Assembly (NCBI RefSeq): GCF_901687125.1
Contig: NZ_CABFJY010000005.1
Location: 1 to 64,000, forward strand
Length of the DNA stretch: 64,000 bases
From: Actinobacillus vicugnae
GTDB taxonomy: Bacteria; Pseudomonadota; Gammaproteobacteria; Enterobacterales; Pasteurellaceae
Direction: 5' to 3'
Made by a program: the position numbers and the translations under genes. Of this stretch, positions 13,305-28,101 are shown piece by piece (the first letter of the stretch is position 1; each line of letters opens with the position of its first letter). The notes beneath the pieces were generated by a model. The model did not search any database and was not told the DNA's origin. It saw nothing but the letters and a program-made list of their open reading frames with translations.

Positions 13305-15227
13305 CTAATTTTTTAGAAATTGAATCACTTTGTTTAAATCACGGGTACGTGCTGAAGGCGGCAAACTTTTCAAGAAAGTTTTCCCATAATTTCGCATCAC
13401 TAACCGAGAGTCACAAATAATCACTACGCCCCTGTCGGTTACATCACGAATTAAACGCCCTACGCCTTGCTTTAACGTGATCACTGCTTCTGGAATTTGA
13501 ATATCGTTAAACGGTTCACCACCTTGTAAACGACAATCTTCCATGCGAGCTTTTAATAATGGCTCATCGGGCGAAGTAAAAGGCAATTTATCAATAATCA
13601 CTAGCGAAAGCGCATCACCTCGTACATCAATCCCTTCCCAAAAGCTTTGGGTTGCTACCAACACGCTATTTTCTTCAGCTATAAATTTTTCAAGTAAGCG
13701 AGCCTTGCTGGTTTCACCTTGTAATAACACACTCAATTTACTGTGTTCACGCAAAAAATCTGCCAAACCGCGCATCATAAAATAAGACGTGCAAAGTAAA
13801 AAACAGCGTCCATTATTGGCTTCAATCACAGGCATCAACATTTTACCCAACGTGGTTAATGTGTGCGATTTATTGGTATCAGGCAAATAACGTGGCACAC
13901 AAAGTAATGATTGATTCGCATAATCAAACGGACTTTGTAGCACCAGTTGCTCAGCATTCTCAATACCTAAGCGCTGACAAAAATGGTCAAACTTACCGCC
14001 TACTTCAAGCGTTGCCGATGTGAAGACCCAGCCAATACGCTGATTTTTAAGCTGTTCGCCGAATTTATCCGCCACTGTAAGTGGCGTGATATGTAACCCA
14101 AACGAGCGTCCATTAGCTTCATACCAATAGCAATAGCCAACCACCGTAGTATCGCTCAATTTTTTTAATTGCACTTTGACTTCTGCTAACCTTTCGAAAA
14201 TTTTATCAAGCGTTTCCGAACGCCCAAGCGATTTTTTAATCACATCACTTAAAAAATCAATATTTTCCGAAACTTTGGTTAAGCCATCCACAACTTTTTG
14301 ATCGCTAAACAATTCACGTAAATTGCCCCGAATCGAACCTTCTGCACCCATTAATAGGCGGAAATCTTGCACCACCTTTTGCAAATGATCGGCGGCTTTG
14401 CCTAATTGAGCGAGATCTTTTAACTCTGTGCGATACACAATATTAATGTCTTTGCAAATATCAAATAACTGCCGTGAACTCAACGATTGCCCAAAATATT
14501 GGCTAGCAATATCTGGTAATTGATGCGCCTCATCAAAAATCACTAATTCAGCTTCTGGGATCAATTCACCAAAGCCCGTTTCTTTCACCGCCATATCCGC
14601 ACAAAAGAGATGATGATTGACCACCACAATATCCGCCTCCATCGCTTTACGGCGCGCTTGCACCACATAGCAATCTTTAAAATGCGGACAATCCGAGCCC
14701 AAACAGCTTTCAGTAGTACTCACTAATTGAGGCAAAATTGGACTATCTTCAGCAATTGTCACACACTCACTCAAATCGCCTGTTTTCGTGCTAGTGTGCC
14801 ATTTACTGACTTTAGATAAATCAGCCAATACCGATTTATCGCCCAATACACCCATTGCCACCACTTGATCTAAGCGCTCCAAACAAAGGTAATTCGCTCG
14901 CCCTTTTAGCAACGCTACTCTGCCTTTATATTTCAGCGCTTTTTGAATAGTGGGCAGATCTCGATTAAATAATTGATCTTGTAAATTTTTAGAACCTGTC
15001 GAAACAATGGTTTTTTTACCTGACAGCAATGCTGGCACTAAATAAGCGAAAGTTTTGCCTGTGCCAGTGCCCGCTTCCACGACGGTTGGGGTTGCAAATT
15101 TTACAGATTTCCCGACCGCTTGTGCCATTTCAAGTTGTGCTGCTCGAGGGCGAAAACCTTTAATATTATTGCTAAGTAAGCCATCTTCGCTAAAGGCATG
15201 AATGATTTTATCGTCTAGTTTTTTCAT
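13305..15227 (-). CDS. yoaA: DinG-family ATP-dependent DNA helicase YoaA
   Basis: Superfamily 2 XPD-like iron-sulphur helicase of 640 residues, close in length and sequence to E. coli YoaA, which works with HolC in repair of stalled forks. Walker A is EAGTGTGKT near residue 53, the DEAH box is VIFDEAHQLPD, and the C-terminal arginine-finger region is VITLKQGVGRLIRD. Four cysteines for the 4Fe-4S cluster lie in RANYLCLERL and ESCLGSDCPHFKDC. It has a strong-looking promoter and a leader hairpin upstream and no clear ribosome site, which could mean low or regulated translation. DinG itself is the alternative name but the match is to YoaA. Confidence 0.93.
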   Translation of the reverse strand: MKKLDDKIIHAFSEDGLLSNNIKGFRPRAAQLEMAQAVGKSVKFATPTVVEAGTGTGKTFAYLVPALLSGKKTIVSTGSKNLQDQLFNRDLPTIQKALKYKGRVALLKGRANYLCLERLDQVVAMGVLGDKSVLADLSKVSKWHTSTKTGDLSECVTIAEDSPILPQLVSTTESCLGSDCPHFKDCYVVQARRKAMEADIVVVNHHLFCADMAVKETGFGELIPEAELVIFDEAHQLPDIASQYFGQSLSSRQLFDICKDINIVYRTELKDLAQLGKAADHLQKVVQDFRLLMGAEGSIRGNLRELFSDQKVVDGLTKVSENIDFLSDVIKKSLGRSETLDKIFERLAEVKVQLKKLSDTTVVGYCYWYEANGRSFGLHITPLTVADKFGEQLKNQRIGWVFTSATLEVGGKFDHFCQRLGIENAEQLVLQSPFDYANQSLLCVPRYLPDTNKSHTLTTLGKMLMPVIEANNGRCFLLCTSYFMMRGLADFLREHSKLSVLLQGETSKARLLEKFIAEENSVLVATQSFWEGIDVRGDALSLVIIDKLPFTSPDEPLLKARMEDCRLQGGEPFNDIQIPEAVITLKQGVGRLIRDVTDRGVVIICDSRLVMRNYGKTFLKSLPPSARTRDLNKVIQFLKN

Positions 15228-15242
15228 ATATATAAAAGGAGC

Positions 15243-15275
15243 AAGGCTGTTTACCCAACATGAGCAAACAGCCTT
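15243..15275 (-). promoter_or_regulatory. Leader hairpin before yoaA (possible attenuator or short RNA end)
   Basis: AAGGCTGTTT (15243-15252) and AAACAGCCTT (15266-15275) form a perfect ten-base stem with a 13-base loop. It lies within the predicted yoaA leader, 16 bases before the ATG. On the minus strand it is followed by GCTCCTTTTATATAT, a weak T-rich tail. It could terminate some transcripts early or shield translation initiation. Structure is seen; role is inferred. Confidence 0.5.
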
Positions 15276-15317
15276 TCGTATCTGTTTTTCTTTGTTTATT
15301 ATTTGTGCGAGACACCT

Positions 15318-15346
15318 ATTATAATACTGGATAAATATTTAGCCAA
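15318..15346 (-). promoter_or_regulatory. Sigma70-type promoter of yoaA
   Basis: On the minus strand TTGGCT (15341-15346) and TATAAT (15318-15323) are separated by exactly 17 bases. The predicted start near 15311 gives a leader of about 83 bases containing the hairpin above. A perfect -10 and optimal spacing make it the best-looking sigma70 promoter I noticed by eye. Confidence 0.65.
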
Positions 15347-27894: not shown

Positions 27895-27995
27895 TGGATA
27901 TTCTTCTTTGGTTATAAATAAAACAAGCGGTGTCATTTTGCAAAAATTTTGAAATTATGTAGCCAATGCACAAAAGTGCGAATTTGTTTAAATGA

Positions 27996-28024
27996 TGTAG
28001 GGGCGAATTGCGTTCGCCCCTACA
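27996..28024. repeat. TGTAGGGGCGAA...TTCGCCCCTACA palindrome between dsbC and recJ
   Basis: A perfect inverted repeat with 12-base arms and a five-base loop (TTGCG), 29 bases in all. Followed on the plus strand by seven As, and so on the minus strand preceded by Ts. It is the cleanest member of the family also found at 1624-1673 and 3634-3697. It may end or attenuate the dsbC transcript before recJ. Confidence 0.65.
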
Positions 28025-28101
28025 AAAAAATGCCTGTGTAACTGCTACATAATACCGAAAAATTTTACAAAATCAGACCACTTGTATTCAATAGCTTAAT
28101 A

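Follow-up and report, generated by a model that had tools for sequence, protein, structure and literature searches.

The window analysed here, 64,000 nucleotides from Actinobacillus vicugnae, carries on its minus strand a helicase gene behind a predicted promoter and a leader that folds into a stem-loop close to the start codon (Table 1). The sequence-only reading took the gene for yoaA and saw no ribosome site before it, and we agree on both counts: the product matches NCBIfam NF053712 at 919 bits (cut-off, 680), and the best anti-Shine-Dalgarno (anti-SD) pairing ahead of the ATG is +1.2 kcal/mol. Equally weak pairing was found at 3 of 45 window genes, a set chosen by hand from 73 ORFs for ATG starts, with frames overlapping larger ones dropped. 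The divergent 70-residue frame upstream has orthologues beside yoaA in six other genomes of the genus and no match in Pfam or NCBIfam.

Table 1. Features of the yoaA locus, in window coordinates.
Feature	Position	Strand	Basis
yoaA, XPD/DinG-type DNA repair helicase, 640 aa, ATG start lacking an SD sequence	13305–15227	−	NCBIfam; anti-SD pairing
T-rich single-stranded spacer from stem to ATG, 15 bases (16–17 in sister species)	15228–15242	−	
Leader stem-loop, 33 bases, 15 pairs including G-U, loop of 3	15243–15275	−	Folding; common to five species
Stretch of 42 bases from −10 box to stem	15276–15317	−	2–3 bases in four sister species
Predicted sigma-70-type promoter, TTGGCT-17-TATAAT	15318–15346	−	Pattern match; 39-base block kept in four sister species
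Weak LexA-like half-site within the promoter, GGCTAAATATTTATCCAGTA (CTA-N10-CAG)	15325–15344	−	Matrix score 4.1
Hydrophobic frame of 70 residues, TTG start, divergent, upstream of yoaA	15468–15680	+	Orthologues

The hairpin in the yoaA leader is confirmed as genuine. Its arms, running from 15275 to 15243, form the ten perfect pairs first noticed (AAGGCTGTTT/AAACAGCCTT); the stem ends 15 bases before the ATG at 15227, not 16 as originally given, and the leader comes to 84 bases instead of 83 if transcription begins 7 bases past the −10 box, a start that is itself predicted. This leader folds to −21.8 kcal/mol (z −3.9) and its last 52 bases reach a z of −5.6, with 0 of 200 shuffles as stable in either case. 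The hairpin ranks fourth of 24 merged local hairpins at or below −17 kcal/mol in the window, both strands listed; the count of terminator-like patterns is at chance level (1 found vs 0.8 expected). The five leaders that carry the hairpin, those of the window species and four sister species, give folding z values of −5.6 (window), −5.0, −5.7, −2.0 and −2.6, while two leaders of the genus without it give 0.0 and 0.5. When the 15 pairs are tallied over the five species, 67 of 75 cells are paired: nine pairs are invariant, three show a G-U-type change, one is replaced by A-C in two species, and three species lack two inner pairs. A short upstream frame starting at an ATG in the hairpin loop was considered and rejected, as that ATG occurs in the window only and both it and the frame are absent from the other four species.

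Within the GTDB genus Actinobacillus, yoaA was found in eight of nine genomes, the ninth being 81% complete. Promoter block and hairpin occur together in five of the eight (G000, G001, G003, A. capsulatus G005 and A. ureae G006), and the hairpin is absent from the other three (G002, G007 and G008); in G007 and G008 the small divergent gene again lies upstream of yoaA, with neither promoter block nor hairpin, and the frame preceding yoaA in G002 reads like UvrA. In the five hairpin genomes no more than about 2.5 kb separates trpB from yoaA, and in the other three trpB lies elsewhere, so the leader accompanies the trpB-yoaA gene order. The hairpin and the weak start are not linked, since yoaA is SD-less in the three hairpin-less genomes as well. 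Without mismatches the dyad pattern occurs only at yoaA, in five of the nine genomes; with three mismatches, each place counted once, it occurs at four other places in four genomes as compared to two places for a reversed control, and on these grounds we rejected the idea of a mobile or repeated element. One further exact match of the 14-base left arm occurs in its own genome, within a frame that we would read as an ABC-transporter ATPase. Across 140 genomes of the family, the left part of the hairpin is found with 0–1 mismatch only in the five Actinobacillus genomes, and with three mismatches in 15 other genomes, against 10 matches of the reversed control. A family-wide feature was likewise rejected: only 15 of 54 distinct yoaA leaders (60 loci) fold to −12 kcal/mol or below, five of these being the hairpin-bearing Actinobacillus leaders; of the other ten, the nine whose surroundings were examined lie behind a co-directional long frame. 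Our literature search found no paper treating yoaA together with Actinobacillus, and the term "yoaA" is absent from the main text of the A. pleuropneumoniae RNA papers examined, among them PMC4986893, which contains one word beginning "ding".

Sequence identity suggests that the promoter is clearly under constraint and that the hairpin probably is, less surely, because identity between the window species and its four sisters beats that at fourfold-degenerate sites of three genes. The 39-base promoter block is identical at 37–38 positions and the hairpin at 26–29 of 33, the latter comparison being anchored on a pattern of the hairpin's own arms, which favours the hairpin; fourfold-site identity is 0.38–0.42 in yoaA, 0.34–0.41 in trpB and 36/66 (0.55) in the small divergent gene. 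Measured against this neighbour's 0.55, binomial P values are 3e-8 to 2e-9 for the promoter block and 3e-3 to 5e-5 for the hairpin. The 80 bases ahead of the promoter show an identity of 0.37–0.63 in gapped alignment. Among the four sisters themselves the hairpin (28–31 of 33) exceeds the fourfold sites of yoaA (0.64–0.72; P 1e-4 to 0.06) and is not above those of the neighbour gene (17–21 of 21–24).

These identities bear on an explanation that we regard as possible, if doubtful, in which the hairpin is the functionless, slowly decaying leftover of the terminator of a former upstream gene. Such a remnant would not be expected to exceed the silent sites of three genes in window–sister identity, nor to keep a fixed distance to the ATG. 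It would, however, account for the hairpin being missing in three of the eight yoaA-bearing genus genomes and weakened in two others, and the upstream neighbourhood is suggestive: in nine relatives with a strongly folding yoaA leader (the ten such leaders outside the hairpin-bearing Actinobacillus, minus L036) the closest long frame upstream runs in the same direction as yoaA, and Haemophilus sputorum (L053) and Actinobacillus minor (L055) carry terminators scoring +21.2 each in the same gap. Here the neighbour is divergent, so no upstream transcription is left to terminate. Descent of the hairpin from a terminator before yoaA is plausible. The elements of H. sputorum and A. minor resemble it as stem-loops placed immediately ahead of the yoaA start; they differ in following co-directional genes and in their strength, the hairpin described here having a divergent neighbour and a negative terminator score. 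Only about 20 bases separate the end of each +21 terminator from the yoaA ATG, and because that leaves hardly any room for a promoter, transcripts of yoaA in these two species must either begin at the terminator or pass through it. In another relative (L051), the co-directional upstream frame overlaps yoaA.

The negative score also bears on the proposal of the sequence-only reading that the hairpin is an attenuator or the source of a 70–80 base small RNA, which we consider very improbable. A strong stem with a T-rich stretch behind it invites this proposal, and a simple scan labels it terminator-like. However, the classic formula gives the five hairpins scores that vary with trimming from −78 to −8 when read in the direction of yoaA; in antisense the scores are −52 to −16, which is the ground on which a terminator serving the opposite strand was rejected. 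The T run is set apart from the stem, and the combination of a GC-rich stem, a direct T run and a positive score that marks intrinsic terminators was found in none of the five species on either strand; attenuation is thus unsupported. By comparison, five other sites in the window score +6 to +38, in a list of unbroken stems from which bulged hairpins such as the one after trpA are absent. A negative score is not decisive and leaves room for a weak terminator, because hairpins after co-directional genes in five relatives (L019, L020, L049, L050 and L072), which are likely terminators, score negatively too. As for a small RNA, termination at the hairpin would yield an RNA of about 75 bases in the window species and of about 40 in the sisters, where the predicted leader measures 45–47 bases from end to end; with a predicted length that is not conserved and no Rfam match within the window at gathering score, this proposal is also unsupported.

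Control of yoaA may instead be exerted at the promoter. The minus-strand promoter noticed earlier stands, with TTGGCT (15346–15341) and TATAAT (15323–15318) on either side of a 17-base spacer and 10 of 12 consensus letters in place, while the count of promoter-like patterns is at chance level (1 found vs 2.7 expected). The spacer contains GGCTAAATATTTATCCAGTA, spaced as CTA-N10-CAG and with ACAG in the sister species, whose right half, TTTATACAGTA, is the one found before E. coli dinG. Scored with a LexA matrix made from only six sites of the same genome, chosen for lying before dinB, recA, recN, recG and a UmuD-like gene (two sites), the window half-site reaches 4.1 and those of the sisters 7.2–8.4, the 95th percentile of random stretches being 6.5; 69 of 63,981 window positions score at least 4.1. 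Single LexA-like boxes precede dinB, recA, recN and recG, and two tandem boxes precede the gene for the 152-residue S24-peptidase (UmuD-like) protein (L131/L132, ~1501–1520; own-genome contig C11, 168416–168460). Elsewhere in the family the null threshold is exceeded at 17 of 60 yoaA loci (two of the 17 being repeats of counted genomes), with about three expected, and five Pasteurellaceae loci (L026, L060, L070, L071 and L075) have full boxes scoring 17–19 before yoaA, for which reasons predicted LexA control of yoaA recurs across the family and may persist weakly in the window species. These full boxes sit 50–80 bases before the aligned yoaA start; L022 scores 16.5, yet its CTGT/ACAG core is missing. 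E. coli yoaA is described as LexA-repressed and damage-induced in the available text of PMC8378479; relative to that account, the gene is the same and CTA-N10-CAG takes the place of CTG-N10-CAG, but the half-site here is degenerate and its score is not significant in this genome, and a leader hairpin, present here, goes unmentioned in that text. Conservation of the spacer fits a bound protein and does not identify which. Such a gate on transcription initiation is at least as likely a source of yoaA control as the leader hairpin.

The spacing of the hairpin bears on what it might do. The distance from stem to ATG in the five species is 15 (window), 16, 17, 16 and 17 bases, and that from the −10 box to the stem is 42 (window), 3, 3, 2 and 2 bases. 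Because the first distance is fixed and the second is either 42 or 2–3, a role tied to the start codon is favoured over two others. In one, the dyad (12-base half-sites, 9 bases apart) would be a DNA operator bound by a repressor near the transcription start. In four species it begins 2–3 bases past the −10 box, and both half-sites are recognisable in all five; the sense fold is stronger than the antisense fold in four of the five species, but only barely in L015, and in A. ureae the order is reversed, the similarity of the two folds in these species being what an operator would allow. The window dyad, however, lies 42 bases off the −10 box, and among nine genus genomes it has no second exact copy, so that no regulon is visible; we consider an operator unlikely. 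In the other, the stem-loop would sit at the 5' end of the mRNA and stabilise it, as hairpins of the ompA type do. The predicted start in the four sisters falls in or at the foot of the stem, which would place it at the very 5' end as in ompA, but in the window species the stem is internal and about 35 unpaired bases would precede it, again by a predicted start, and we consider this function distinctly unlikely.

Our preferred reading, with a probability of little more than one in three, is that the hairpin works in cis, as part of the yoaA 5' untranslated region, on translation initiation and keeps YoaA synthesis low. Lying 15–17 bases before a start codon that lacks an SD sequence, it could form a structured standby region where the bound 30S subunit has its upstream edge, hairpin and SD-less start jointly holding synthesis down; its origin may be the terminator of a gene that once lay upstream. 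Computed results are the fold, its occurrence in five species, its fixed distance to the ATG (as would be sought in a translation-controlling structure), its low terminator strength and its similarity between window and sisters above silent sites; that the predicted promoter is used, that translation is affected and in which direction, and that the hairpin goes back to a terminator are inferred. This translation reading is a best guess by analogy, resting on position and on published effects of upstream hairpins: in synthetic leaders, according to the available text of PMC3936740, hairpins upstream of the ribosome site change translation more than 100-fold. The yoaA leader resembles the structured standby sites of that text in having a single hairpin shortly before the initiation region and differs from them in lacking an SD sequence. 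Low synthesis would make sense because excess YoaA inhibits growth of E. coli (PMC8378479, available text). Several findings run counter to an effect on translation. The compensatory changes proposed earlier as a check are absent among the five sequences, no pair being altered on both sides, and in a control for the stem, pairing was no worse once the 3' letters had been shuffled. An A-C mismatch close to the stem base leaves L015 and A. ureae with a fold of only about −12 kcal/mol, the antisense strand folding better in A. ureae, and among the four sisters the hairpin is conserved no better than the neighbour gene's fourfold sites. Under the standby model, moreover, most of the hindrance by the hairpin would be lifted in the window species by the many unpaired bases at the 5' end of its leader. 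The gated helicase expression envisaged in the sequence-only reading thus survives in part: a structured leader common to five species, with window–sister similarity above that of nearby silent sites, makes some cis control plausible, whereas attenuation and a small RNA fall away.

If the hairpin does throttle translation, YoaA would be controlled at transcription, through SOS, and again afterwards; such dual control would fit the growth inhibition by excess YoaA in E. coli (PMC8378479, available text), and it would become possible to test whether an XPD-type helicase is controlled post-transcriptionally. If the hairpin has no such role, this is one more structured bacterial leader. One could also envision that an intergenic terminator no longer in use was recruited as a dedicated RNA element controlling the repair helicase in cis, atop a LexA-type promoter, and that it is read by a protein or by YoaA itself in autocontrol; this we hold to be very improbable.

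Two minor observations concern other sequences. The extra 42 bases between the −10 box and the hairpin have no other copy in their own genome at two or fewer mismatches, and part of them (15279–15306) shows weak similarity (E 0.012, four places) to the spacer between 23S and 5S rRNA in a genus relative. An inverted repeat of the GTAGGGGCGAA...TTCGCCCCTAC type lies at 27991–28026 of the window; a similar one precedes yoaA in Bibersteinia, in the L020 leader, and this type looks like a dispersed repeat.
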